Virus record (IMG/VR): IMGVR_UViG_3300028920_000295
Location: 1-21,623 of that record
Length of the DNA stretch: 21,623 bases
Direction: 5' to 3' (one strand)
Source of the DNA: a virus
The first letter of the stretch is position 1. The number at the start of each line of letters is the position of its first letter. A program made the position numbers and the translations under genes. The notes beneath the pieces are model-generated. The model had not been told where the DNA came from and searched no databases. It saw only the letters and a list, made by a program, of their open reading frames with translations. Below are positions 1,343 to 18,172 of the stretch, in pieces.

Positions 1343-1371
1343 ACTCTGCCTCCTTATATTATTATATAATT

Positions 1372-1403
1372 ATATAATACCAAATAAAGACAAAATAGTT
1401 AAC
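1372..1403 (-). promoter_or_regulatory. Possible promoter, loose variant of the GTTWA/TGTATATAT family
   Basis: The 84-base gap between the terminase stop (1427) and the next start (1342) contains, on the minus strand, GTTAA at 1403-1399, and about 16 bases later a TGGTATTATATAAT-like run. GTTAA matches the upstream box of the four exact copies elsewhere, but the downstream box is TGGTATTAT rather than TGTATATAT and the spacing differs. It also offers ordinary TATAAT -10 elements. It is placed correctly to drive the 1342-1 gene group. Confidence 0.4.
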
Positions 1404-1426: not shown

Positions 1427-3358
1427 TTAATTTAATAACGGGTGGATGTTTTCTTTCATTATATCCTCTTTTTGCTTTTCGTCTGAAGATCTTGAAGAGC
1501 CTGTTATTACTCCTGGTGAGGATTTTCCATGCAAACCAAAAAGCTTATCAAATCCTATCTTGGCATAGTTTCCAGCGTGTGCATAATGGTCCGGTCCTGT
1601 ATGCCCTACCACTTCATATAGTGAATCAGTTTTTTCATCAACATATCTTTCTATAGCAAGGCTAGCATGATGTTTTATAAATTCTTCAATGTTACTATCT
1701 AATCTTGGGATGTCTATTCCTTTTTCTTCGTATTGTTGTATCATTGCCTTAAATGTTCCAACTCTAGAAACTGTTACTCTCCTTGCTTTTTGGTTCCATG
1801 CTGGGATTATTAGCATATCTTTTTTCTTTTGCCGTTGTATTTCTCCTGTATCATAGAAACATCCCCAAGCTCGTGTTGGAAATTTTCCTACTAAATAAGA
1901 ATTCCTATCTACTCCTATTCCATTTGCGTCATTTACTATGATTGCTGCTTTAAAAAATATTGCTATTTTCTCCACTCTTTTTGCATGATCAATTTGTCTT
2001 CCTGCAAACCCATGCTTTTGCAGACTTTTATTATCTATTCTTTCTATATATATTATTTTTGGCTTGTGTACTTCTGGCGGGAATCCATTTGCCATCACAA
2101 CGACCCAACTTACCTCACCCCAATCAACACCTATAGAAACATTTTTTGTATTTCCTATCTGTTTATATTGATTTACAAAAGTCCTGTCTTGACATTGTTC
2201 AAATATTTCTCTTGATATTTGAGCTTCAGGGCTTATATATGCATACCCCATTATCTCATTCCAAAATTGATGGATAAACTTGAACGTATGGTATTTGTAC
2301 AAAATCTCTTTTCCTGTTTTCCACGGCAGCATCATGTAAGTGACCCTGTACGAGGCTCTTGTTATAATTAAATGTGGTTTATTAGGAACCCATCTTGATG
2401 TCTTCAGGTAAAACTGAGATGTCTTGTCAATATACTCACCGCAATACTTACAACCAATATATACAGTATCTAGTTTTTTTAAATACTTCTCGTCATCTGG
2501 TTCTGCATGGTCTACATCAAAGAAATTTCTTATGTTTTCTGGGAACTCCATCACTTGCTCTTTCTTGCATTTAGGACAGGTTATCATCCACTCATATTGA
2601 CTAGCCTTGTTAAACTTATCATCTATTCCACTATTAGGAAATTTTGGTGTTGATATCCTTGTCCTCCTTCCTATAGCACTATGTGAAGTTGATTCTGAAT
2701 ATATATCTTCTACTTGCGGGTTCTGACTCTCATACTCATCAAATGTTATCTTGTCACTTGATGGCCCTCTTCCTTGATAATCAGTCCAAGAACTGTCTAC
2801 TGTATAAAAACTTCCATTCTTAAACTCTTTAGATTTCATACTAAAAGGTTTCTTTAATTGAGTTATTATTTTTGGTGATTTTTCTATAGCTATTGAAATC
2901 TTTTCTTTTGCCATCTTCTCTGCCATACCAGCTGTAGGAAAGATGTGCCTTACATTAGTAAATGGACGTGATGCACATAGATATATATTCTCATTTATTT
3001 CATTTTCCGTAAATTCACTCTGCCTGCATTTTATGACTGTCTTGTCTTTACATGTATCATTTATGTACTGCGTCAAATATGGACGAGGTGCTTCTATAAT
3101 TTTTTTGTCTTTATTTCCAAGCATCATCTCTATTTCAGCATCTTTATAGCTAAAAACTCGCCCGCCTATCATTCTATTATTTTCAATCCATTCTTGAAGA
3201 TTCCCTTTTCCTTTTGTAAATTCACAATAGTTGGAGATACTATTGCTTATTAAATCAAAGACTTTACATGCTTCTACTTTTTCTTGATCATCATCGTTTA
3301 ATATAATGCTTGTTATATCGTTTATTATTTCGCTTGCTTCTTCTTTTTTTAAAGACAT
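1427..3358 (-). CDS. terL: Terminase large subunit (GpA-type), DNA packaging ATPase/nuclease
   Basis: This is the packaging motor subunit that pumps phage DNA into the procapsid and cuts concatemers. The 643 aa fit the family's usual length. Residues 108-117 (VIKCRQSEFT) are a degenerate Walker A with R112 and T117 but no GK[ST]. KITFDEYE at 203-210 is the Walker B, with acidic D207/E208. Cys pairs at 261/264 and 303/306 form the zinc ribbon usual in GpA-type proteins. A RNase-H-like nuclease follows, with likely metal ligands D412 (GVDWGE), D477 (VNDANG) and D590. The start ATG at 3358 has a modest AGGA site and lies inside the preceding membrane-protein gene (68-nt overlap). The gene is visibly richer in G+C than its neighbours. 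It ends the operon that starts near 5256. A TerS candidate lies far away at 11371-12060. Confidence 0.95.
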   Translation of the reverse strand: MSLKKEEASEIINDITSIILNDDDQEKVEACKVFDLISNSISNYCEFTKGKGNLQEWIENNRMIGGRVFSYKDAEIEMMLGNKDKKIIEAPRPYLTQYINDTCKDKTVIKCRQSEFTENEINENIYLCASRPFTNVRHIFPTAGMAEKMAKEKISIAIEKSPKIITQLKKPFSMKSKEFKNGSFYTVDSSWTDYQGRGPSSDKITFDEYESQNPQVEDIYSESTSHSAIGRRTRISTPKFPNSGIDDKFNKASQYEWMITCPKCKKEQVMEFPENIRNFFDVDHAEPDDEKYLKKLDTVYIGCKYCGEYIDKTSQFYLKTSRWVPNKPHLIITRASYRVTYMMLPWKTGKEILYKYHTFKFIHQFWNEIMGYAYISPEAQISREIFEQCQDRTFVNQYKQIGNTKNVSIGVDWGEVSWVVVMANGFPPEVHKPKIIYIERIDNKSLQKHGFAGRQIDHAKRVEKIAIFFKAAIIVNDANGIGVDRNSYLVGKFPTRAWGCFYDTGEIQRQKKKDMLIIPAWNQKARRVTVSRVGTFKAMIQQYEEKGIDIPRLDSNIEEFIKHHASLAIERYVDEKTDSLYEVVGHTGPDHYAHAGNYAKIGFDKLFGLHGKSSPGVITGSSRSSDEKQKEDIMKENIHPLLN

Positions 3359-5233: not shown

Positions 5234-5255
5234 TTATATCTCCTTAACAATATTA

Positions 5256-5283
5256 ATATATACAAAATTTTTAATATGTAAAC
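5256..5283 (-). promoter_or_regulatory. Promoter-like motif GTTTA-N14-TGTATATAT
   Basis: On the minus strand GTTTA (5283-5279) is followed by exactly 14 bases and TGTATATAT (5264-5256). The same boxes and spacing recur at 7893, 8835 and 11368. It begins 5 nt after the upstream gene's stop codon and ends 22 nt before the ATG at 5233. The TGTATATAT box would supply an extended -10. I infer that it drives the operon 5233-1427, which ends with terL. Confidence 0.7.
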
Positions 5284-5288
5284 AAAAA

Positions 5289-5432
5289 TTAACCGCCTCT
5301 CTCTTCTATAAACCTTAACAATAAATGTGAGTATTCTGTAGAAAAATCTAATAATTCATCAAATAATTCCTCTAACTCATCAAGAGACATTTTTTTCAGT
5401 TCTTTTTCTGTATAATATTCATATTTTTTCAT
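5289..5432 (-). CDS. Small acidic protein, 47 aa
   Basis: ATG at 5432-5430, overlapping the previous gene's TGA as ATGA, and TAA at 5291-5289. The product is acidic and helical (KELKKMSLDELEELFDELL), ending FIEERGG. Such Leu/Glu-patterned peptides are common in phages and have no known role. It closes a transcription unit: the promoter-like motif for the next unit starts just after its stop. Confidence 0.65.
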   Translation of the reverse strand: MKKYEYYTEKELKKMSLDELEELFDELLDFSTEYSHLLLRFIEERGG

Positions 5433-5632
5433 ATATTTTCTAAATGCTTATTTATTATTCTATTAATCTTATATTTTAAACTTTTCTTTCTTTTTACTTC
5501 TAACTTATATATCATATCAATAATATCAAGATTTAATTTTTTGTCATAAAAATGTATGCCTTTGGTATTATTCTTTTTCGCTCTTTTTAACAATTCTATA
5601 ATTGAGTTTAATTCCTTCATTTCTTTTTCCAA
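5429..5632 (-). CDS. Hypothetical helical protein, 67 aa
   Basis: Unrecognised, Lys-rich and helical throughout (ELNSIIELLKRAKKNN, then YKLEVKRKKSLKYKINRI). A shared stop/start (ATGA) links it to the following 47-aa gene, and it begins inside the 3' end of the preceding membrane protein gene (16-nt overlap). No motifs are visible. Confidence 0.7.
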   Translation of the reverse strand: MEKEMKELNSIIELLKRAKKNNTKGIHFYDKKLNLDIIDMIYKLEVKRKKSLKYKINRIINKHLENI

Positions 5633-6042
5633 TATTGATTTTTTTCAGGGCATTTATAATCTTTGTATAAAATGCTCAATACATGATCCTTAAACTCATC
5701 CCAGCTTTTATAATGCTCAACCAATTTTTCTGAAATTTTTTTCGTTTTATTATAATTTTTATCCATTTTAAATTCCCACAAAATAATTCCTACTTCACCA
5801 TATTTATCTACAAGTAAAAAATGATTATATTTTTGCTTACATAATATTAAAGTTTCACCATTTTTTTCTCTATCTAATTTTTGAAGATAATCAGAAACTT
5901 GATGAAACCCAAATCTATACCATCTATGTTCATCCATAGAAAGACTTCTGTTTCGAATATCTTCCCCTCCATGTAAAACTGCACCAATAAATCCAAGAAT
6001 AAAAAAACAAATTGCAATAATTAATATAATTGTTGATACCAT
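5617..6042 (-). CDS. Membrane-anchored hypothetical protein, 141 aa
   Basis: An N-terminal hydrophobic segment at residues 2-24 (STIILIIAICFFILGFIGAV) anchors a soluble domain. That domain has strand-like segments (ETLILCKQ, HFLLVDKYGEVGIILWEF) and a helical C-terminus. The segment could be a signal anchor; no cleavage motif is clear. The upstream AAGG site overlaps the end of the possible frameshift extension of the preceding gene. Function unknown. Confidence 0.75.
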   Translation of the reverse strand: MVSTIILIIAICFFILGFIGAVLHGGEDIRNRSLSMDEHRWYRFGFHQVSDYLQKLDREKNGETLILCKQKYNHFLLVDKYGEVGIILWEFKMDKNYNKTKKISEKLVEHYKSWDEFKDHVLSILYKDYKCPEKNQYWKKK

Positions 6043-6053
6043 ATATTAGAACC

Positions 6054-6127
6054 TTATACATTTATCTTTATACTATTTATTTTATCTATCAATTTTTTAT
6101 CTTCTTCCCCTTTTATTCTTTTTTTTT
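6054..6127 (-). other. Candidate -1 frameshift site and 21-codon extension
   Basis: The run of nine A residues (minus strand, 6127-6119) holds two in-frame Lys codons in a slippery A-AAA-AAA arrangement near the end of the 6931 gene. The zero frame stops two codons later at 6115-6113. Slipping back one base opens a further 21 codons (RIKGEEDKK, then LIDKINSIKINV) ending in TAA at 6056-6054, right at the ribosome binding site of the next gene. A Shine-Dalgarno-like AGAGAAG lies a few bases upstream (6139-6133). An A10 run hidden by a sequencing error would give the same product. Confidence 0.4.
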
Positions 6128-6931
6128 GTTTTCTTCTCTAATTTTTTTTGTTGTTTCTTCATTTTTTTCAATTCTTAATAAGTCATCATATTTTATTCTC
6201 TGTTTTTTAGCTATTTTCTTTAATGTTTCATATTTCACTCTTCTTCCTGTACTTACCCTATAATAAAACATATCTGTGTGAATATTTAAATCCCCAAATG
6301 TTGTAGACCCACATTTTTCACAAGCAGGCGGGCTTCCAAATGCTTTGCTTAAACCCATAGATAATGAATTCATTACTAAATATAATGCACTTTTCTTATA
6401 AGACTTTGTTTGTAATTTATTACAATCACTACAATATACTCTTGTTTCAAAATCTTTAGGTAAGCTTCTTAAATATTCTTCAGATTTTTTTAATACTCTA
6501 TCATGATTACCAAAATGAATTGTAAAACTACCCCATGTTAGCCATAAATATCCCATATTACAATAAGTAATTTTAGCATCCCTTAAATCATTTTTAAGTA
6601 TTCCACAATAATCTCCACCAAACATTAATTCTTCCCATATCAACTCTAATTCTAAATGTTTCTTATCATCATATTCATATACACTAAAATTTGTCATTTG
6701 ATCTTTATGATTATAAATAGCATAATGTTTACACCCTCTTGGCCAAGTTCTCCATCTAACTTTTTCTAAATACAAATCAAATTGTTCTTTAGAAATATCT
6801 TCACCAGCTTTTTTTAAAATAGTTTGTTCTTGCTCTATTTGTTTTGGCGGATTGTTTTTTTCAAGATCTCTATATTCATCATCTAATCTTTCATTCTCTT
6901 CTATAAATTTTATTATTCCACTTTTACCCAT
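6113..6931 (-). CDS. Hypothetical protein with Cys pairs, 272 aa
   Basis: I do not recognise this protein. Residues 1-60 are charged and helical; the middle is aromatic-rich (RWRTWPRGCKHYAIY, GYLWLTWGSFTIHFG). Two CxxC pairs (VYCSDC and PACEKCG, about 40 residues apart) suggest a zinc ribbon wrapped round a hydrophobic helix. The C-terminus is a Lys-rich helix. The ATG at 6931 has a GAGGAAATA site and overlaps the preceding gene by 8 nt. The annotated stop follows an A9 run, so the true C-terminus may be 21 residues longer. Confidence 0.8.
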   Translation of the reverse strand: MGKSGIIKFIEENERLDDEYRDLEKNNPPKQIEQEQTILKKAGEDISKEQFDLYLEKVRWRTWPRGCKHYAIYNHKDQMTNFSVYEYDDKKHLELELIWEELMFGGDYCGILKNDLRDAKITYCNMGYLWLTWGSFTIHFGNHDRVLKKSEEYLRSLPKDFETRVYCSDCNKLQTKSYKKSALYLVMNSLSMGLSKAFGSPPACEKCGSTTFGDLNIHTDMFYYRVSTGRRVKYETLKKIAKKQRIKYDDLLRIEKNEETTKKIREENKKKE

Positions 6932-7289
6932 TATTTCCTCCTAAATAAGCAACAATACTAAACAAATCAAAATCCTCTATGATTTTTTCTTTTGTCTTTA
7001 TATCTGTACTCATTTTCTTTATTTGCCCAAAAATATGAAAATTTAACTTATTAGCTACATTTTTATACTTTTCATTTACAATTAGATTTATAGAAAAATT
7101 ATTATTTTCTTTTACTTCTATAGATTTCCATTTTCCAACTCTTTCTGTAATATCATTAAACATAACAATGTTTCTTTTGTATACCTTACATTTTTTATCA
7201 TATTCTTTTATTGCTTTGCCTAAAACTTCTTGGCTTATTTTTTCATTATTACTATTTTTTATTAAGAAATCAAAATAACCATCTTTCAT
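6924..7289 (-). CDS. Hypothetical protein, 121 aa
   Basis: Unrecognised alpha/beta-looking protein with no Cys pairs or membrane segments. It has an N-terminal helical region (QEVLGKAIKEYDKKCKVYK), a strand region (KWKSIEVKENNNFSINLIV) and a C-terminal hydrophobic DLFSIVAYLGG that overlaps the next start. Its ATG overlaps the previous stop as ATGA, so translation is probably coupled. Confidence 0.72.
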   Translation of the reverse strand: MKDGYFDFLIKNSNNEKISQEVLGKAIKEYDKKCKVYKRNIVMFNDITERVGKWKSIEVKENNNFSINLIVNEKYKNVANKLNFHIFGQIKKMSTDIKTKEKIIEDFDLFSIVAYLGGNNG

Positions 7290-7492
7290 AGTCTTATATA
7301 CCTTATTTCTTTCAACTTATTCTTTAAATGACGTATTTTTTCTTCACTTTTCCACAATCCGGGATCATTTTCATAAACACAATCAATGGTATTACAACTT
7401 AAACATGTTTCATTCAGAAAATTTTCCATTTTATCCAAGATATTTATCAATTCATTTAAATCTGAATCGTTTAAAAAACATTTTTCATCCAT
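7286..7492 (-). CDS. Hypothetical protein with four Cys, 68 aa
   Basis: A short protein with C5, a CLSC pair near residue 34 and a further Cys (DCVYEN). The spacing could hold a metal but is not a standard knuckle. The flanks are helical (LNELINILDKMENFL, and KIRHLKNKLKEIRYI). The ATG follows AAAGGAAAAATAG and overlaps the previous gene by 8 nt. Confidence 0.68.
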   Translation of the reverse strand: MDEKCFLNDSDLNELINILDKMENFLNETCLSCNTIDCVYENDPGLWKSEEKIRHLKNKLKEIRYIRL

Positions 7493-7658
7493 CTATTTTT
7501 CCTTTCATTTCTATAGCTTTTTTATATGCTCTCCCTTTTCCGTTTTTAAATTTAGAAGCTTGCCTTCTTGTAGGTTCTATATTTGCTAATTCACACATCT
7601 TAATGAAACGTGGTTCTTTCATATATTTTTTGTTTGTCATTCCCAAAACTTTTGTCAC
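7485..7658 (-). CDS. Small basic protein, 57 aa, GTG start
   Basis: GTG at 7658-7656 sits seven bases after GGAGG and overlaps the preceding stop as GTGA; the stop is TGA at 7487-7485. The product is basic with a central helix-turn-helix-like stretch (RFIKMCELANIEPTRRQASKF), then KNGKGRAYKKAIEMKG. The pattern, with a PTRRQASKFKNGKG loop, suggests a DNA- or RNA-binding phage protein. I cannot assign a family. Confidence 0.68.
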   Translation of the reverse strand: MTKVLGMTNKKYMKEPRFIKMCELANIEPTRRQASKFKNGKGRAYKKAIEMKGKIDG

Positions 7659-7846
7659 TTTAATTCCTCCCTTCTTTTTAACAGCTGCCCTTCACTCATA
7701 TAAGTAATATTTTTACTGCTTCTTTTTTTATTAATCCAATAAAAAATAAATTTTTTGCATTTCATACATTCATAAATATTAAAATCACTATTAGCATATT
7801 TCAATATTATTTCTTCATTTCCACAATTTAAACATATGTTTCTCAT
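7655..7846 (-). CDS. Zinc-ribbon-like small protein, 63 aa
   Basis: Two Cys pairs, CLNCG at residues 5-9 and CMKCK at residues 27-31, with strand-like sequence between them (EIILKYANSDFNIYE), form a classic rubredoxin-type zinc ribbon. The C-terminal tail is basic. The ATG follows AAGGAGTAATCT and lies 19 nt after the promoter-like motif at 7866-7893, making this the first gene of that unit. Confidence 0.75.
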   Translation of the reverse strand: MRNICLNCGNEEIILKYANSDFNIYECMKCKKFIFYWINKKRSSKNITYMSEGQLLKRREELK

Positions 7847-7865
7847 AGATTACTCCTTAATATTT

Positions 7866-7893
7866 ATATATACAAAATAATAAAAAAATTAAC
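7866..7893 (-). promoter_or_regulatory. Promoter-like motif GTTAA-N14-TGTATATAT
   Basis: On the minus strand GTTAA (7893-7889), exactly 14 bases, then TGTATATAT (7874-7866). The TAA of the upstream box is itself the stop codon of the HNH gene at 7889. The ATG of the 7846 gene follows 19 nt later, with AAGGAG between. I infer that it drives 7846-5289. Confidence 0.75.
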
Positions 7894-8215
7894 TTATAAC
7901 TCCATTTTTCCTGTCCATATTTTCTTTGTGTGTTACCCACTCAAGATTCTTATAATAATTATTTTCTTTGTTCCTATCTATATGATCAACATATATTTTA
8001 TCATATTTATTTTTTACAAAATGAATTGCTACCAATCTATGAATATAAAAATTTTTCTTTTTTCCATTTTTACAAAGGGTTACATAAAGATAGCCATTTG
8101 GCTTTTTCATTGGTTTTAATTTTTTTTTAACACCACTTTTTATTGAAAAAACCTCTCCATCACCAGAAACACTATATTCTTTATATTCTGCAAGATCTTC
8201 TCTTTTATAAACCAT
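7889..8215 (-). CDS. Freestanding NUMOD/HNH endonuclease, 108 aa
   Basis: A homing-type endonuclease that likely makes site-specific breaks in related phage DNA. Residues 12-30 (EYSVSGDGEVFSIKSG) match a NUMOD4-like element. IHRLVAIHFV at 58-67 holds the conserved HRLVA. VDHIDRNKENN at 76-86 is the HNH core (H78, D80, N86), followed by LEWVTHKENM at 91-100. This order, NUMOD then HNH_3, is the usual one. It starts after a short gap from the 8475 gene and its stop codon overlaps the promoter-like motif at 7866-7893. It may be a mobile gene that inserted at an operon boundary. Confidence 0.88.
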   Translation of the reverse strand: MVYKREDLAEYKEYSVSGDGEVFSIKSGVKKKLKPMKKPNGYLYVTLCKNGKKKNFYIHRLVAIHFVKNKYDKIYVDHIDRNKENNYYKNLEWVTHKENMDRKNGVIS

Positions 8216-8217
8216 TC

Positions 8218-8475
8218 TTATTTCTCCGGCATTCTATATATACTGTAATAATCAAAAACAGTATCTGCATCAGTTTCTTTCTTTGGATATTTCTGTATAT
8301 GTATGGCTTTCTCCATATCATTTAATATCTCATTGCATCTTTCTCTATTTTTATAATTTCCTAAAAAATAAGATGAACCAGATGAATCAGTTCCTGCTAT
8401 CTGCTCTCCTCCATGACTTATTATTATTCTTGTACAATTCATCAAACAATCTTTATCTTGACTTCTTATCCACAT
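8218..8475 (-). CDS. MWIRSQDK-type small phage protein, 85 aa
   Basis: The N-terminal MWIRSQDK and the C-terminal DYYSIYRMPEK are ends I recognise from a recurrent small protein of Bacillota and their phages: MWIRSQDK, then a beta sandwich with a G-x-Y element (here LGNYKNRERCNEILNDM), then a closing YxMPE. The function of this group is unknown to me. The ATG follows AAGGAGAATAATC and overlaps the 3' end of a 28-codon gene. A Bacillota-type homologue supports a low-G+C Gram-positive host. Confidence 0.82.
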   Translation of the reverse strand: MWIRSQDKDCLMNCTRIIISHGGEQIAGTDSSGSSYFLGNYKNRERCNEILNDMEKAIHIQKYPKKETDADTVFDYYSIYRMPEK

Positions 8476-8539
8476 GATTATTCTCCTTATTGTTTAATTT
8501 CCTTAATATCATTCTAAAAGCTTTACTATCATCCTTCAT
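8453..8539 (-). CDS. Very short protein, 28 aa
   Basis: ATG at 8539-8537 directly follows the TGA of the previous gene, with GAGG four bases upstream; TAA is at 8455-8453. The product is basic (MKDDSKAFRMILRKLNNKE, then NHVDKKSR). It fills the only gap between the two flanking genes and overlaps the next start by 23 nt. It is too short to identify, and could be a non-functional run. Confidence 0.45.
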   Translation of the reverse strand: MKDDSKAFRMILRKLNNKENNHVDKKSR

Positions 8540-8788
8540 TCATCCTCTTTTCCTATTTATTCTTCTACTTTTTCTTGCTATCTTATTTCTTATTCTATTC
8601 TTCTTTCTTTTTTTGTTTAGTTCTATCTCATGCTGCAAATGATTCCCTCTCCATTTACACCCTTCAACATGTTTATTTTTTTCTTTCAATTTAGATTTAT
8701 CTATTTCTCTTTTCTTTTTATTTGCTTCACCACTTTTTTCTACAGTTGTTTTTTTCTTTTGCTTCTTTACTTCTTTCTTATCACTCAT
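8540..8788 (-). CDS. Highly basic Lys/Arg-rich protein, 82 aa
   Basis: The composition is extreme: dense Lys and Arg throughout (KKEVKKQKKK, NKKRKKNRIRNKIARKSRR), with few hydrophobic residues. It is probably disordered and likely to bind nucleic acid; it could help compact DNA or be packaged, but this is inference. The ATG follows AAAGGAGATCTTA, 19 nt after the promoter-like motif at 8808-8835, so it leads that transcription unit. Confidence 0.68.
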   Translation of the reverse strand: MSDKKEVKKQKKKTTVEKSGEANKKKREIDKSKLKEKNKHVEGCKWRGNHLQHEIELNKKRKKNRIRNKIARKSRRINRKRG

Positions 8789-8807
8789 TAAGATCTCCTT
8801 TACGAAA

Positions 8808-8835
8808 ATATATACAAAATAAAAAAATCATTAAC
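8808..8835 (-). promoter_or_regulatory. Promoter-like motif GTTAA-N14-TGTATATAT
   Basis: On the minus strand GTTAA (8835-8831), exactly 14 bases, then TGTATATAT (8816-8808). It starts one base after the TAA of the 9055 gene and ends 19 nt before the ATG at 8788. Boxes and spacing match those at 7893 and 11368. I infer that it drives the unit 8788-7889. Confidence 0.75.
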
Positions 8836-8836
8836 A

Positions 8837-9055
8837 TTATTTACTTGAATAATTCTTATAAATGTCAGTGTATTTTTTATTAGTCTTTATATGTTTTTTT
8901 AAAGCCATTCCAACATAGTTTCTTAAACAAAGCCCATTTATTCTTGCTAATTCTCTTAAAATTCTAACATCTTCATTATTTAAATTAACTAAACTATTAT
9001 TTTCTATTTTTAACTCCACTCTTAATACATCATTTTTCTTAAATCTTTTTTTCAT
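8837..9055 (-). CDS. Possible DNA-binding protein, 72 aa
   Basis: A beta strand (DVLRVELKIENNSLVNL) followed by two helices (NEDVRILRELARINGL, RNYVGMALKKHIK) resembles ribbon-helix-helix or small phage regulators. It is not a confident match. The ATG is coupled to the upstream stop by a 4-nt overlap. It is the last gene of the unit that begins at 11324 and lies just before a promoter-like motif. Confidence 0.68.
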   Translation of the reverse strand: MKKRFKKNDVLRVELKIENNSLVNLNNEDVRILRELARINGLCLRNYVGMALKKHIKTNKKYTDIYKNYSSK

Positions 9056-9300
9056 TTTTTCTCCCTAAATAAAAGTTCTCTTACTTTTTCTCTTATAAAT
9101 TGGTGTGATCTTGAGCTTGCTTCTAAAAGATCTATTAACTCATATGCTGTAAAACACTTACTTTTCTGAGCTACTCCTGATGCAAATTTCCTACCATCTT
9201 TATCTTGTATTAAAAAAGCACTATAAATTATATTAACATTGTATTTTTCAGCCAATGCTTGTAATTCTTCTCTAAAAATTTTTTCTTCAATTTTTGCCAT
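9052..9300 (-). CDS. Hypothetical protein, 82 aa
   Basis: Unrecognised. Helix REELQALAEKYNVNIIY and strand AFLIQDKDG are followed by a helical C-terminus (AYELIDLLEASSRSHQFIREK). The lone hydrophobic strand flanked by helices suggests a small alpha/beta domain. The ATG follows AAAGGAGGTTTATA, an excellent ribosome binding site that lies inside the previous gene's end. Confidence 0.75.
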   Translation of the reverse strand: MAKIEEKIFREELQALAEKYNVNIIYSAFLIQDKDGRKFASGVAQKSKCFTAYELIDLLEASSRSHQFIREKVRELLFREKK

Positions 9301-9736
9301 TATAAACCTCCTTTAGCTTTTGTTTGAGTTCGGCTATTATTTTATCATCTATCATATACCATTTCTCATCATAAGGGGATAAAGGGATTTCTTGTTCCCA
9401 CTCATCAATCACCCTCATAACCTTTTCCCTATCCCGTTTCAACTGCACACCTATTTCATCATATATTTTCCCGTAGCAAGTATGACATAATAAGTAATCA
9501 GTTTTAGGAAATTTGTATTTCATTTCATCCACTTTGTCACCACAGATTTTGCAATGTTCTTCCGAATATGTTGTGAGTTTGTTATAACTTTCTCTATCCA
9601 TCACAACATAATCTTTTGAATGAATTATAGCTGTTTTTTTATTCTTTATTGTTTTAATAAAATCAATTAACATTTCTAATGATTTGCCATGTTTTCTTGA
9701 TTCCATTTTTATTTCTCTCAATTTCTCTCTGTTCAT
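9287..9736 (-). CDS. Zinc-finger-like hypothetical protein, 149 aa
   Basis: A helical N-terminus (residues 1-33), a strand region (TAIIHSKDYVVMD), then a Cys4 finger: CKICG at residues 62-66 and CHTC at residues 84-87, about 20 residues apart. The C-terminus is helical and acidic (VMRVIDEWEQEI, IIAELKQKLKEVY). The base composition is somewhat less AT-rich than in neighbours. I cannot name the family. Start ATG after AAGGAGTCCCT, overlapping the 3' end of the next gene upstream by 4 nt. Confidence 0.75.
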   Translation of the reverse strand: MNREKLREIKMESRKHGKSLEMLIDFIKTIKNKKTAIIHSKDYVVMDRESYNKLTTYSEEHCKICGDKVDEMKYKFPKTDYLLCHTCYGKIYDEIGVQLKRDREKVMRVIDEWEQEIPLSPYDEKWYMIDDKIIAELKQKLKEVYNGKN

Positions 9737-9915
9737 AGGGACTCCTTATTTATATCTTTCTCAGCCAACAACTTCCCATCTAATGTCCAATATTGTGTAA
9801 TACGTCTAAATGGATCATCTTTACCATTTCCACGCAATTCTAAATATGTTTTTATAACTGTTATGATTTCAACCTTATTTTCATCATGTATTTTATAATT
9901 GTTATACATCTTCAT
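9733..9915 (-). CDS. Small phage protein with GKDDPFRRITQYW motif, 60 aa
   Basis: The core LRGNGKDDPFRRITQYW (residues 27-43), followed by TLDGKLLAEKD, matches a recurrent phage/Bacillota small protein with a conserved G-x-G-x-x-x-D-P-[FY]-R segment and a Trp turn. Its role is unknown. The ATG follows GTAAAGGAGAAGGT, the same 19-base leader as the 10130 gene. Confidence 0.78.
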   Translation of the reverse strand: MKMYNNYKIHDENKVEIITVIKTYLELRGNGKDDPFRRITQYWTLDGKLLAEKDINKESL

Positions 9916-9929
9916 ACCTTCTCCTTTAC
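9911..9929 (-). repeat. Repeated ribosome-binding leader, copy 1
   Basis: The 19 bases spanning AAGGAG and the ATG of the 9915 gene (GTAAAGGAGAAGGTATGAA on the minus strand) are identical to 10126-10144 before the 10130 gene. The repeat covers only the ribosome binding site and start. Confidence 0.7.
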
Positions 9930-9938
9930 CCAGTGAAA

Positions 9939-10130
9939 TTAAATCATAGCATCACTACTAGTCTCATAAATTTCATAAATCTTCACTAAATTCATATCGA
10001 AAAAATCACTAAGTTTTTGTTTAGCTTTTGAAGAAGACGGGGCTTGTATAATTTTTTCAAATGTACTTCCATAAATCATCAAATCGTTATCGTATTCAAT
10101 TCCGCTAATGTAATAATATTTATCTTTCAT
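9939..10130 (-). CDS. Hypothetical protein, 63 aa
   Basis: I choose the ATG at 10130, which lies five bases after AAGGAG. An ATG at 10148 in the same frame would place that site inside the coding sequence. The product begins MKDKYYYISGIEYDNDL; the rest (IYGSTFEKIIQAPSSSKAKQKL, then MNLVKIYEIYET) looks like a compact strand-helix-strand domain. Its function is unknown. It sits between the YopX gene and the DPFRR gene. Confidence 0.7.
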   Translation of the reverse strand: MKDKYYYISGIEYDNDLMIYGSTFEKIIQAPSSSKAKQKLSDFFDMNLVKIYEIYETSSDAMI

Positions 10131-10144
10131 ACCTTCTCCTTTAC
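10126..10144 (-). repeat. Repeated ribosome-binding leader, copy 2
   Basis: Identical to 9911-9929: 19 bases containing AAGGAG, a five-base spacer and the start codon. It decides the start at 10130. Two neighbouring genes sharing an exact translation-initiation region suggests gene conversion or tandem duplication with divergence. Confidence 0.7.
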
Positions 10145-10513
10145 TCATTGATCCTCACCCTCCAGTAGTTCGGGGTTGTCAAATTTATTTCCTTTGACTT
10201 TTAAAAGTCCCGGTATTTCTTCAATATGCCATTCTCCAAAACAATATTGACTATTACGAAATAATATTACTCTTGATATATTATGTGATATTGATTTACA
10301 TATATCCCCTTCAAAAATCTTCTTACCATTCTTATCCTTCAACCCTGTCCACTGCCCGACTGATTCGGGGTTGACTTCATGAAAATGCAAATCAGGAACA
10401 ATAACATCATGACATTTTTGTTTTGGCAATATAGAAAACTCATTTTCAAAAATCATTAAACTTCCATAAACCCAACCTTCTCCATCAACTCTTTTTCCTC
10501 TGTATTCTCTCAT
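10145..10513 (-). CDS. YopX family protein, 122 aa
   Basis: A clear member of the YopX family (PF09643 type), common in phages and prophages of Bacillota and of unknown biochemical role. The signatures are MREYRGKRVDG with WVYGSLM at residues 1-20, VNPESVGQWTGLKDKNGKKI at about 47-66, and FEGDICKSI at 67-75. Length is near the family's typical 120-140 residues. The ATG follows GGAGGTATCAA and overlaps the stop of a tiny upstream frame as ATGA. Confidence 0.9.
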   Translation of the reverse strand: MREYRGKRVDGEGWVYGSLMIFENEFSILPKQKCHDVIVPDLHFHEVNPESVGQWTGLKDKNGKKIFEGDICKSISHNISRVILFRNSQYCFGEWHIEEIPGLLKVKGNKFDNPELLEGEDQ

Positions 10514-10545
10514 TTGATACCTCCGAATTCTCTCTTACTTATCAT
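10510..10545 (-). CDS. Possible 11-codon leader peptide upstream of YopX
   Basis: In the 44-base gap, an ATG at 10545-10543 lies six bases after GGGAG and opens MISKREFGGIK. Its TGA overlaps the YopX start codon as ATGA, and the YopX ribosome binding site is embedded in its last codons. It may be a translational coupler or chance. There is no independent evidence that it is expressed. Confidence 0.3.
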   Translation of the reverse strand: MISKREFGGIK

Positions 10546-10557
10546 ATTTTTCTCCCA

Positions 10558-10788
10558 TTATATTTTTTTATACTCAAAAGTAATTATTACAACACCCAAA
10601 TACATTACGGGAACAATATTCTTTTCAATATAATTTAATATTTTAACTTCTATATCTTTTTTTATTTTTTCTAACAAAACCAAATTTAAATATATTTTTC
10701 CTTTTTGATTAAACTTTACTACTATAGTATATTCATTTATATTAAATTTTTTTAAATATCTTCTAAATTTTTTATTTTGCTCTATCAT
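10558..10788 (-). CDS. Hypothetical protein, 76 aa, paralogue of the 13902 gene
   Basis: Unrecognised. A basic helix with RRYLKKFNINEYTIVV (residues 9-24), a strand region, then LNYIEKNIVPVMYLGVVIITF (residues 51-71) gives a strand-helix-strand fold. The first and last parts align with the 13678-13902 protein (RKYLEDNNITKYRLV; LNILKRDIIPVGIMF), so the two look like diverged paralogues. The ATG has an AAAGAG site and overlaps the upstream gene by 4 nt. Confidence 0.72.
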   Translation of the reverse strand: MIEQNKKFRRYLKKFNINEYTIVVKFNQKGKIYLNLVLLEKIKKDIEVKILNYIEKNIVPVMYLGVVIITFEYKKI

Positions 10789-11324
10789 ATTCTCTTTCCT
10801 TTTTCATCAAACCATATATATGGCAAATCATTAGGAACGTTCTTGAAATATTTATTATAATGCATATAATCTTTTCTCAATAAATTACTTTTATGACTTA
10901 GATGAAAATCCTTATTTCCTAACCATTTAGGATATATTATTTTCCCATATGGTTTAATAATATTCATATTATTAACAAATCCTCTTCTGACCCATTCATC
11001 AACACAATCATTAAAATAAATAATCAATGCATCTTCATAATTATACCACATTCTAATTGCTGGGTGGTTTAACCAACCTATTTTTCTAATTTTACCACCA
11101 CATAATATTCCATCATATTTTTCTAAACATATCATTGAATCGTTTTTATTTAGTTTTTCTCCATATTTTTTTCCACACTTTTTGCATCTATACTTATATC
11201 CACAATGTAAATTTTGTAATGTTAATAATATCTGGTAAGCTTCTACTCTCTGTTTCCCGAGTCTCTTGTTGTCTAAACATCTAACTGATTTAACAAAATC
11301 TTTGTATGGTAAAAATGTCTGCAT
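10785..11324 (-). CDS. Pyrimidine-dimer DNA glycosylase-like protein with zinc-ribbon insert, 179 aa
   Basis: This matches the MSMEG_6728/Pyr_excise family (PF03013 type), related to T4 endonuclease V, which removes UV-induced pyrimidine dimers. The N-terminal MQTFLPYKDFVKSVRCLDNKR and LGKQRVEAYQILL, then WLNHPAIRMW (84-93), EDALIIYFN (97-105), EWVRRGF (110-116), and the C-terminal LGNKDFHLSHKSNLLRKD and NDLPYIW, are all family hallmarks. Between residues 40 and 80 the usual short link is replaced by a segment with CKKCG (47-51), C66 and C75, apparently a zinc ribbon. The ATG follows GAGGTAGTT and lies 16 nt after a promoter-like motif, so the gene leads the 11324-8837 unit. Confidence 0.85.
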   Translation of the reverse strand: MQTFLPYKDFVKSVRCLDNKRLGKQRVEAYQILLTLQNLHCGYKYRCKKCGKKYGEKLNKNDSMICLEKYDGILCGGKIRKIGWLNHPAIRMWYNYEDALIIYFNDCVDEWVRRGFVNNMNIIKPYGKIIYPKWLGNKDFHLSHKSNLLRKDYMHYNKYFKNVPNDLPYIWFDEKGKRI

Positions 11325-11340
11325 AACTACCTCATATATA

Positions 11341-11368
11341 ATATATACAACTCCAAGATTTTTTTAAC
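11341..11368 (-). promoter_or_regulatory. Promoter-like motif GTTAA-N14-TGTATATAT
   Basis: On the minus strand GTTAA (11368-11364), exactly 14 bases, then TGTATATAT (11349-11341). It begins two bases after the TAA of the 12060 gene and ends 16 nt before the ATG at 11324. The intervening 14 bases differ from the other copies while the boxes are identical, as expected for a conserved promoter rather than a duplicated block. Confidence 0.75.
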
Positions 11369-11370
11369 AA

Positions 11371-12060
11371 TTATTTTTTAAATCCTTGAGCTCTTATCTC
11401 AGCACCTAACTCCTGGACTCTTCTGGAGATATTTGAAAGCATTTCTGGATCCTTTACAACATCTATTATTATATTTCTAAACTTCATAAACATATATTCA
11501 ACTTGTTCTACTGTAAATGATACTTTTGGAGCATGTTTCATTTCCCAATGTGTTTTCTTAAATCTAACTATATTGTCTAACAACCACATTAGTTTGCCTG
11601 GGTTTTCTGCTATCTCATCATCAGTTTTTGCTTTTAGAAATTTTCTTAAAACAACAACTGATAATTTTAACTCATCAAGTGTATTTGTAAGATCTTCTTC
11701 TGCAAGACCCTCCAATTCTCTTAGTTCTTTTTGTAAAGCAGCATCTTTGCCAATATCATATAACCCTAATGATTTCTTCAATTCCCTTATCTCCTTTTTT
11801 TTCTCTAAATTTACACCAGTATGCCTTCTGCAAACGACCCTTCCTTTTAAAGCTGGGTATGGGCATTGTCTAGGAGGATGAGATGACTGCAATTTTGCTT
11901 GACATCGTATAACTATCCGCCCGTCCTTGTAATATTTAAAATCTTCCCATTTTTCTCTTTTTTTTGTGCTAGAAGTTTTTCTTTCTCGTTCAATTATCTT
12001 CATCAATTCCTTTTTTTTCTTCTCTATCTTCTCGAAAATTTCTGGGTCTTTATTAGTCAT
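11371..12060 (-). CDS. HGG-like Cys/His protein, possible terminase small subunit, 229 aa
   Basis: Residues 1-45 are a Lys/Glu helix. Residues 52-83 carry C53, PPRQCPYPALKG with C66, and VVCRRHTGV with C77 and H80. This resembles the HGG-type Cys/His motif seen in phage proteins often encoded near, or annotated as, small terminase subunits. The remainder is helical (KELRELEGLAEED, LWLLDNIVRFKK, VEYMFMKFRNIIIDVV), and could oligomerise. Small terminase subunits bind the packaging site and pass DNA to TerL. The TerS assignment is inference: terL lies about 8 kb away, and both genes are richer in G+C than their surroundings. The ribosome binding site is weak (GAGG 13 bases upstream). Confidence 0.7.
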   Translation of the reverse strand: MTNKDPEIFEKIEKKKKELMKIIERERKTSSTKKREKWEDFKYYKDGRIVIRCQAKLQSSHPPRQCPYPALKGRVVCRRHTGVNLEKKKEIRELKKSLGLYDIGKDAALQKELRELEGLAEEDLTNTLDELKLSVVVLRKFLKAKTDDEIAENPGKLMWLLDNIVRFKKTHWEMKHAPKVSFTVEQVEYMFMKFRNIIIDVVKDPEMLSNISRRVQELGAEIRAQGFKK

Positions 12061-16549: not shown

Positions 16550-16759
16550 CTATTCTTTTATTTTTTTGTAAATATCACTTTTACTTAAATCTTCAACAAC
16601 ATTACCCCTCCCAACTATTTCCATATCAAAATAAGCTTTACATTTCTTATGATAATATCCTGGAAGATTGCTTATAGTAATAGGACCATTTTTTTCCTCA
16701 TCATCTTTTACAGTTATTTCTTTCATACATCTCTGACAAATTTGTCCTATTCCTTCCAT
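16550..16759 (-). CDS. Cys-pair finger protein, 69 aa
   Basis: CQRCMKEITV near residues 8-11 and YHKKC (H37, C40) give a CxxC-x-HxxC pattern similar to a LIM-like or treble-clef half finger. The C-terminus is acidic and helical. The ATG follows AAGGTAGATATATC and overlaps the upstream gene by 13 nt. Function unknown. Confidence 0.7.
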   Translation of the reverse strand: MEGIGQICQRCMKEITVKDDEEKNGPITISNLPGYYHKKCKAYFDMEIVGRGNVVEDLSKSDIYKKIKE

Positions 16760-16971
16760 GATATATCTACCTTTCCAAATATTGAATTATAAGTAAATTT
16801 TTTATTTTTGAAAATATCTTTAGTTAATTTTGTTAAAGAACTTCTTTCAATCGGTATTGCCATTATCATTTTCTTAAAATCACTTCTAGAAAAAGATATT
16901 TCCTTTATTTTTATAAAATTTTCATTACAATCTTTTAAAAAATCATTGATTACTTGTCGCTGATGCTTCAT
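16747..16971 (-). CDS. Hypothetical protein, 74 aa
   Basis: Unrecognised. Helical N-terminus (VINDFLKDCNENFIKI), middle strand/helix (SDFKKMIMAIPIERSSL) and an end FTYNSIFGKVDISW typical of short phage proteins that finish with a hydrophobic strand. GAGGT lies nine bases before the ATG, and the gene begins inside the 3' end of the transglycosylase-like gene (29-nt overlap). Confidence 0.7.
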   Translation of the reverse strand: MKHQRQVINDFLKDCNENFIKIKEISFSRSDFKKMIMAIPIERSSLTKLTKDIFKNKKFTYNSIFGKVDISWKE

Positions 16972-18172
16972 TATAAATTACCTCTTTTATTTTCTTTTTA
17001 AAAGCTTTTCTAAAAAAATAAATGAATCCAACAATGTAAATATATACAGAAAATATAAAAAAGAAACAGCATAAAATAAAAGTAATGATAAAACCAATAG
17101 AAATTTTATCACCTACTTTTATTTTCTTTAAAATATCTTTTGCAACCCATTTTACTTTTTTTAAAGCTTTAACACCTTTCCCACTTCTAGATTGTTTAGA
17201 AATTACTCTCAATCTTTTATTTGCTTTTTTTAATTCTTTTTTAAGTTCTTTTAATTTCTCATCTTTTTCATTAGAAGCCTCTTCATAATTTTTTATTTTC
17301 TTTCTCAAAGATCTAATTATAGATCTAGTTTTTCTAAAATCAATTTCTTCCTCTCTTATTCTACTGAAATAAGCTTGCCATTTTTCAATTATTTCTTTAC
17401 AAGGTTCTAGCTTACCAGATTCATATGCCTCTTTCATTTCTCTAAATGTATAATAATATTTTATAACATTATACTTTTTTCCATTTAATGTAAAACTAAC
17501 TGGAACTTTTCCTTCACCTCTATCCCAATATTTTGACAAGAATCCGCCCCAATGATATATTGAAACATACCAATCTTCCCTCCCTTGAAAACTTCTTCTT
17601 TCCCACCAAAGTAATGCATAAGTTATTTTTAAACTTGTTATAGGATCATATAAATCTTTTTTAGATTTTAGCTCAAAATATAAAAGCCTTCTTATATTAT
17701 CTGGCATAAATCTTAATAATCTCTCAGCTAATAAAGCTGTTGGCCATTTTATCCCACCTATCCCTATTTCTCCATAATCATGATCCATCCATGGATTAAA
17801 ACTACTTTCCATTTTATGTATTATTGGAACATCATATAACCCAAAAAACAATATAGTAGCACACCTATAATTAAATCTTATATACTTTATTTTCTGGTCT
17901 TTATTCATAGATTTTTTATAATTTTGGTCATATTTATACGAAAAAGCTGTCAATATATCTATCATCATTTTGGTGTATTTGCTTTCAGCATCAGGCATCT
18001 TAGTCCAATCAAATTCAGATCTAAGGGCAAGAATTTCTGCAGCTACTTTATTTTTATATTTACCACTATCAACTATTAATCTGCTTAGTTCAACTAAGGA
18101 AAGAAAACAAATAGAAACAGTTATTATAAACAATAATATTTTCAAATCTAATTTTTTTATTTTTTCAATCAT
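16943..18172 (-). CDS. Membrane-anchored lytic-transglycosylase-like protein, 409 aa
   Basis: The start chosen is ATG 18172, with GAGGTG six bases before it, not the ATG five codons upstream. A membrane helix at about 12-34 leads into an SLT-type domain (residues 100-240). ESSFNP at 122-127 supplies the likely catalytic E122; GEIGIGG at 134-140 corresponds to the family's G-x-x-G-L-x-Q region; VSIYHWGG at 203-210 corresponds to the A-x-Y-N-x-G stretch. A charged coiled coil (about 273-330) and a second membrane helix (358-388) follow, with a basic cytoplasmic tail. With both ends anchored, the SLT and coil would sit outside the membrane. It may remodel peptidoglycan, for lysis or entry. Proximity to recombination genes rather than tail genes is unusual. 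Confidence 0.8.
   Translation of the reverse strand: MIEKIKKLDLKILLFIITVSICFLSLVELSRLIVDSGKYKNKVAAEILALRSEFDWTKMPDAESKYTKMMIDILTAFSYKYDQNYKKSMNKDQKIKYIRFNYRCATILFFGLYDVPIIHKMESSFNPWMDHDYGEIGIGGIKWPTALLAERLLRFMPDNIRRLLYFELKSKKDLYDPITSLKITYALLWWERRSFQGREDWYVSIYHWGGFLSKYWDRGEGKVPVSFTLNGKKYNVIKYYYTFREMKEAYESGKLEPCKEIIEKWQAYFSRIREEEIDFRKTRSIIRSLRKKIKNYEEASNEKDEKLKELKKELKKANKRLRVISKQSRSGKGVKALKKVKWVAKDILKKIKVGDKISIGFIITFILCCFFFIFSVYIYIVGFIYFFRKAFKKKIKEVIYNEASATSNQ

Follow-up and report, generated by a model that had tools for sequence, protein, structure and literature searches.

Genes and Features of the Locus

The DNA analysed here, referred to throughout as the window, is a viral stretch of 21,623 nucleotides (positions 1 to 21,623) that belongs to an unclassified, AT-rich lineage of tailed phages with a distant Herelleviridae-like terminase. 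All of the 56 genes called by our home-made codon-usage model (coding density 93.5%) lie on the minus strand, which is therefore the sense strand throughout. The coding strand is strongly purine-biased, with A at 45%, G at 18%, T at 30%, and C at 8%. The features that concern us are the following, given in window coordinates.

11371 to 12060, minus strand: 229-aa gene upstream of promoter 1, putatively TerS-like, by position only; orthologues in contigs L016, L013, G003, G004, G007, and L006
11340 to 11368, minus strand: putative promoter 1, directly after the stop codon of the TerS-like gene; GTTAA at 11368-11364, -10 TATATT at 11345-11340
10785 to 11324, minus strand: pyrimidine dimer DNA glycosylase (Pfam PF03013, E=6e-21), first gene of the operon behind promoter 1
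8807 to 8835, minus strand: putative promoter 2, upstream of an 82-aa gene (8540-8788); GTTAA at 8835-8831, -10 TATATT at 8812-8807
7865 to 7893, minus strand: putative promoter 3, upstream of a 63-aa gene (7655-7846); GTTAA at 7893-7889, -10-like TATATA at 7870-7865
5255 to 5283, minus strand: putative promoter 4, upstream of the operon running to terL; GTTTAC at 5283-5278, -10 TATATT at 5260-5255
1427 to 3358, minus strand: terminase large subunit (terL), 643 aa (phrog_675, E=1e-88; Pfam GpA_ATPase)
1369 to 1403, minus strand: putative variant promoter shortly after terL; GTTAAC at 1403-1398, -10 TATTAT at 1379-1374, overlapping TATAAT at 1374-1369
17039 to 17067, minus strand: possible internal promoter GTTTC-N18-TATATT within the SLT gene, in its 3' part, some 70 nt ahead of the start of the gene at 16747-16971

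For most of its length the window terminase shares about 25% identity with Staphylococcus and Bacillus phage terminases; no GenBank phage was matched by the window in megablast, and a TerL scan of bacterial and archaeal genomes found neither a host nor a prophage. Relatives with terminase identities of 53-70% are present in IMG/VR, and the related contigs, cited by our own labels, comprise G003 (61.9 kb), G004, G006 (39.6 kb), G007 (97.3 kb), G010, L005, L006, L013, L016, and L017. All of these, like the window itself, are fragments, and they include near-duplicates, L013 being almost identical to G006 where the two overlap and G004 a close relative of G003. Since it was the terminase, and not the motif described below, that led to most of the relatives, they provide an independent test of the motif. 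A collection-wide scan with the 229-aa gene yielded nothing, its orthologues being found among the related contigs listed above, and collection-wide scans for the exact motif plus a Shine-Dalgarno sequence gave mostly scattered single matches; among the loci fetched from these motif scans, only one had at least three sense-strand copies, and it was already known via TerL. As a separate observation, the terminase genes of G003 (L007 9977-12352) and L016 (5066-8092) carry in-frame inserts that break them at one shared site, that of G003 matching Pfam Intein_splicing and that of L016 being longer, while the window terminase has no insert.

A Two-Box Motif at Four Gene Junctions

The motif, which was read from the window sequence before any testing, consists of GTTWA, 14 bases, and TGTATATAT. 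A pattern search of the window returns exactly four copies, all on the minus strand (5283-5256, 7893-7866, 8835-8808, and 11368-11341), the same four that had originally been predicted. All of them lie at gene junctions with gaps of 42-55 nt, and their placement is as had been described: each starts at the preceding stop codon or at most about 10 nt from it (at 7893 the TAA stop of the HNH gene is contained in GTTAA), each ends 16 to 22 nt before the next ATG (22 nt for the 5283 copy, 19 for 7893, 19 for 8835, and 16 for 11368), and the window holds no exact copy inside genes or on the plus strand. The further description of the copies as equally spaced holds for the boxes within each motif; along the genome the copies are unevenly spaced.

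The strict motif did not occur in 400 whole-strand dinucleotide shuffles, and the looser pattern GTTWA-N18-TATAWW matched only the same four sites, with none on the plus strand, against a mean of 0.5 in 400 such shuffles. When three mismatches were allowed, the 30 matches found against 23 expected were at chance level, so that it is the exact copies, and where they stand, that carry the signal. Scans of the window for generic sigma70 promoters and for terminators gave matches at shuffle level. Taken alone, TGTATATAT occurs twice more, in both cases within genes, at 2465 (terL) and at 17048 (the 414-aa SLT gene), and the latter copy has GTTTC at the right distance. This in-gene near-match (17067-17039, TGTTTC...TGTATATATT) receives the top window score from a profile trained on the relatives, and it is possible that it represents an internal promoter, or it may have arisen by chance in T-rich codons for membrane helices. 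The same profile places the sites at 5283, 8835, and 11368 in the top five and misses the one at 7893.

A looser variant had also been suspected near 1403, and it proves to be real and conserved. It reads GTTAAC-N18-TATTAT, and a relative contains an evident homologue: the element GGTTAACTATTT...GGTATTATA is found after terL in G006/L013 and in a second place in G006, and the stretch GGTTAACTATTTTGTCTTTATTTGGTATTATA of the variant matches GGTTAACTATTTCGTTGCTTCTTGGTATTATA, which is present in two copies in G006.

Box Architecture and Register

Three of the sites have T directly 3' of TGTATATAT and the fourth has A, which sets the motif into a sigma70-type layout: a -35 box TTWANN, a 16-bp spacer, and a -10 box TATATT/A. 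The -10 hexamer is TATAAT-like, reading TATATT in three of the four copies, with A2 and T6 retained, and TATATA, without T6, in the fourth. In the TTGACA register the spacer of 16 bp falls within the 16-18 bp of a sigma70-type promoter. Measured against the canonical sigmaA promoter (TTGACA-N17-TATAAT), the window sites thus have both boxes and a comparable spacer but a divergent -35: TTTACA matches at 5/6 positions at one site, TTAATT, TTAATG, and TTAAAA at 3-4/6 at the others, and the third position is never G, although this consensus is the canonical bacterial one and the host's own preference may differ. The 5283 site (TTTACA-16-TATATT) reaches 10/12 matches to TTGACA/TATAAT in the generic scan.

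Alignment of ten sites from the window, L005, G006, and L016 reveals a longer conserved unit, tGTTWA-N15-GTATATAWT, in which T precedes GTTWA in nine of the ten (GTTWA itself being the search pattern). The earlier picture of two near-invariant boxes around a 14-base interior is to be corrected in that the conserved unit is longer. The remark that GTTAA differs from the usual -35 box captures a departure from TTGACA that is systematic: across ~105 non-coding TATAWT sites from this lineage, TTGAC occurs upstream once, and not at promoter spacing, whereas matches to GTTWA or GTTAC keep appearing at the expected distance. What that statement overlooked is that TTWANN, 16 bp, and TATATT together form an ordinary sigma70 layout, and that GTTTAC is known from T4 early promoters.

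Conservation in Related Contigs

In the non-coding sense DNA of six pooled contigs (window included, near-duplicates omitted, distances 5 to 31), the distance from GTTWA to TATAWT peaks sharply at 18 (19 pairs) and 19 (9 pairs), with 0-4 pairs at every other distance; antisense non-coding DNA of the same contigs has no such peak. When a profile is built from the window sites, the two highest ranks in each of G006, L005, L016, and L013 go to the known sites. Most sites of the relatives carry GTTTA(C/A/T), and in G003 the GTTWA -35 box is followed by TCGTATAWT, which occurs 15 times on the sense strand and once on the antisense strand.

The position of the sites is partly syntenic. A promoter directly follows the TerS-like gene in the window, G003, and G004, whereas in L016, L013, and G007 there is none and the next gene follows directly; promoter-like sites come after terL in the window (the 1403 variant), G006/L013, G003/G004, and G007, with different genes downstream.

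Two further types of element were observed in the relatives. In G007, five elements of the type TTGTTACAAA...TTATATAAT stand before genes (52732, 61983, 70905, 81767, and 89703) and look like a member-specific promoter version, and in G003 GATTAAT-N7-8-ATGYACTATAAT forms a second class of promoter-like sites, located close to endolysin and structural genes (41324, 44857, 45936, and 56753).

Comparison with Known Promoter Systems

The -35 box resembles that of T4 early promoters, which combine GTTTAC at -36 to -31 with a sigma70-type -10 (PMC1524935), and less closely the SPO1 late box. The window sites share with T4 the G-T-T-W-A core and the sigma70-like -10; they differ in that GTTTAC stands at one of the four sites and GTTAA at the other three, and in that T4 has 19 bases from GTTTA to the -10, a distance shared by some of the sites in G003 and in G006, against 18 in the window. 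The phage lineages also differ. SPO1, a Bacillus phage whose terminase lineage is distantly related, has the late consensus CGTTAGA-N17-19-GATATT (PMC3601020), with the GTTA core, the ATATT end, and the distance seen in the window. However, where SPO1 has the first C the window sites have T or A, the G in TTAGA is replaced by other bases, and the G at the start of GATATT by T; nor are window-type sites confined to structural genes.

Among the Herelleviridae, the Listeria phage CKA15 has host-sigmaA-like early promoters with TTGAC and late promoters of the form TGCTATATTA that lack a consensus -35 (PMC12282133), and the late promoters of Staphylococcus phage K are likewise devoid of a -35 box (PMC9241854). 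Three of the four window copies have the TATATT -10 of these late promoters, with TG a short way upstream, but in the arrangement TGTA-TATATT the TG is one position farther upstream than in an extended -10, in which TGN immediately precedes TATAWT and there is no -35, and the window sites keep a conserved -35.

Nature of the Sites and the Polymerase That Reads Them

The four motifs are almost certainly promoters of the phage, a reading well supported by their strand, position, spacing, and conservation in relatives. Chance origin in T-rich intergenic DNA, or a site other than a start, such as a terminator or processing site, appears highly improbable. The intergenic sequence is indeed AT-rich and the three-mismatch pattern no commoner than in shuffles, but the absence of exact copies from shuffles, the strict strand bias, the fixed distance peak, and conservation in relatives in front of different genes all speak against it, and in a scan of the window none of the motif sites showed the hairpin and T run of a terminator. 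It was this combination of strand bias, fixed spacing, and conservation that led us to reject a terminator or chance origin.

The reading we favor, and consider probable, is that the four motifs and the 1403 variant are sigma70-type phage promoters recognized by host RNA polymerase carrying the primary sigma factor. Each would start an operon in this tightly packed, one-strand genome, with GTTWA (TTWANN in the TTGACA register) serving as the -35 and TATATT/A, behind a conserved GTA and 16 bp away, as the -10. Transcription would begin ~6-8 nt past TATATT, at the Shine-Dalgarno sequence or immediately ahead of it, leaving leaders of ~8-16 nt, and the reader would be of the kind that serves the GTTTAC early promoters of T4. 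Two observations weigh against the host sigma: three of the four window copies are GTTAA and not GTTTA(C), and TTGAC is essentially absent at promoter spacing, unlike in the sigmaA-like early promoters of a Herelleviridae phage.

The original prediction had allowed instead for a phage-encoded or phage-modified polymerase, or for an activator, and phage sigma factors are in fact present in the relatives, although we favor the host primary sigma as the reader. No sigma-family gene was found in the window fragment, whereas sigma70-family proteins, one or more per contig, are encoded by all of the larger relatives examined. G003 has two RpoD-like proteins of 276 and 294 aa that are 37% identical to each other; in G004 one was found, 94% identical to the first of these; and G006, G007, and G010 also encode proteins with sigma region 2.

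G003, 22235-23065 and 43965-44849 (L027 856-1686 and L028 805-1689): the two sigma genes
G006, 25985-26740: sigma-region-2 protein at or near the portal gene
G007, 37931-40564 (L032): sigma-region-2 protein at or near the portal gene
G010 (L072 1-1938): sigma-region-2 protein at or near the portal gene

The sigma-region-2 domain of G007 lies inside an 877-aa protein with DUF6496 and repeated segments resembling HKYLRK...YIYEE. Given their location at or near the portal gene, we think it possible that these proteins, that of G007 included, could be sigma factors carried in the virion.

That host core polymerase reads the sites with a phage-encoded sigma, in a cascade like that of SPO1, is a tentative alternative to which we give appreciable but clearly lesser weight. 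It would explain a -35 that is consistently GTTWA and not TTGAC, it finds candidate factors in G003, G004, G006, G007, and G010, and the layout is reminiscent of the SPO1 late consensus. Against it, the relatives' sigma proteins (all from genome fragments) resembled SPO1 gp34 or gp28 no better than chance, the window fragment lacks a sigma gene, and the second promoter-like class of G003 makes a better candidate for a late sigma. Both sigma genes of G003, moreover, sit behind the GTTWA/TCG class itself: this class should then fire before the sigmas are made, so that the first rounds of transcription should need no phage sigma, unless the virion brings one in, which favors the host primary-sigma holoenzyme. 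Very unlikely, in our estimate, is a third arrangement in which host polymerase reads the -10 and a phage activator other than sigma region 4 binds GTTWA, as MotA does at T4 middle promoters. The T before GTTWA in the aligned sites and a box that seems more uniform than many -35 boxes (GTTWA being, again, the search pattern) would suit such a protein, but GTTWA stands at the normal -35 distance (16-17 bp) and not closer to the -10.

A broader proposal, which we regard as rather doubtful, is that the lineage redirects host polymerase with its own, possibly virion-carried, sigma factors, and that GTTWA...GTATATAWT and its TCG and GTTACAAA counterparts are member-specific codes co-evolving with them.

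Implications for the Phage Lineage

A repeated phage promoter is in itself ordinary, and the present find is sound but largely of that kind: related phages share both boxes at the same spacing. It nevertheless supplies a promoter map, open to testing, for an uncultured phage lineage whose members keep the -35 box and the spacing and vary the bases before the -10, GTA in the window group and TCG in G003. As their genomes also hold several sigma-family genes, these phages form a useful set for following the divergence of phage promoters and sigma factors.
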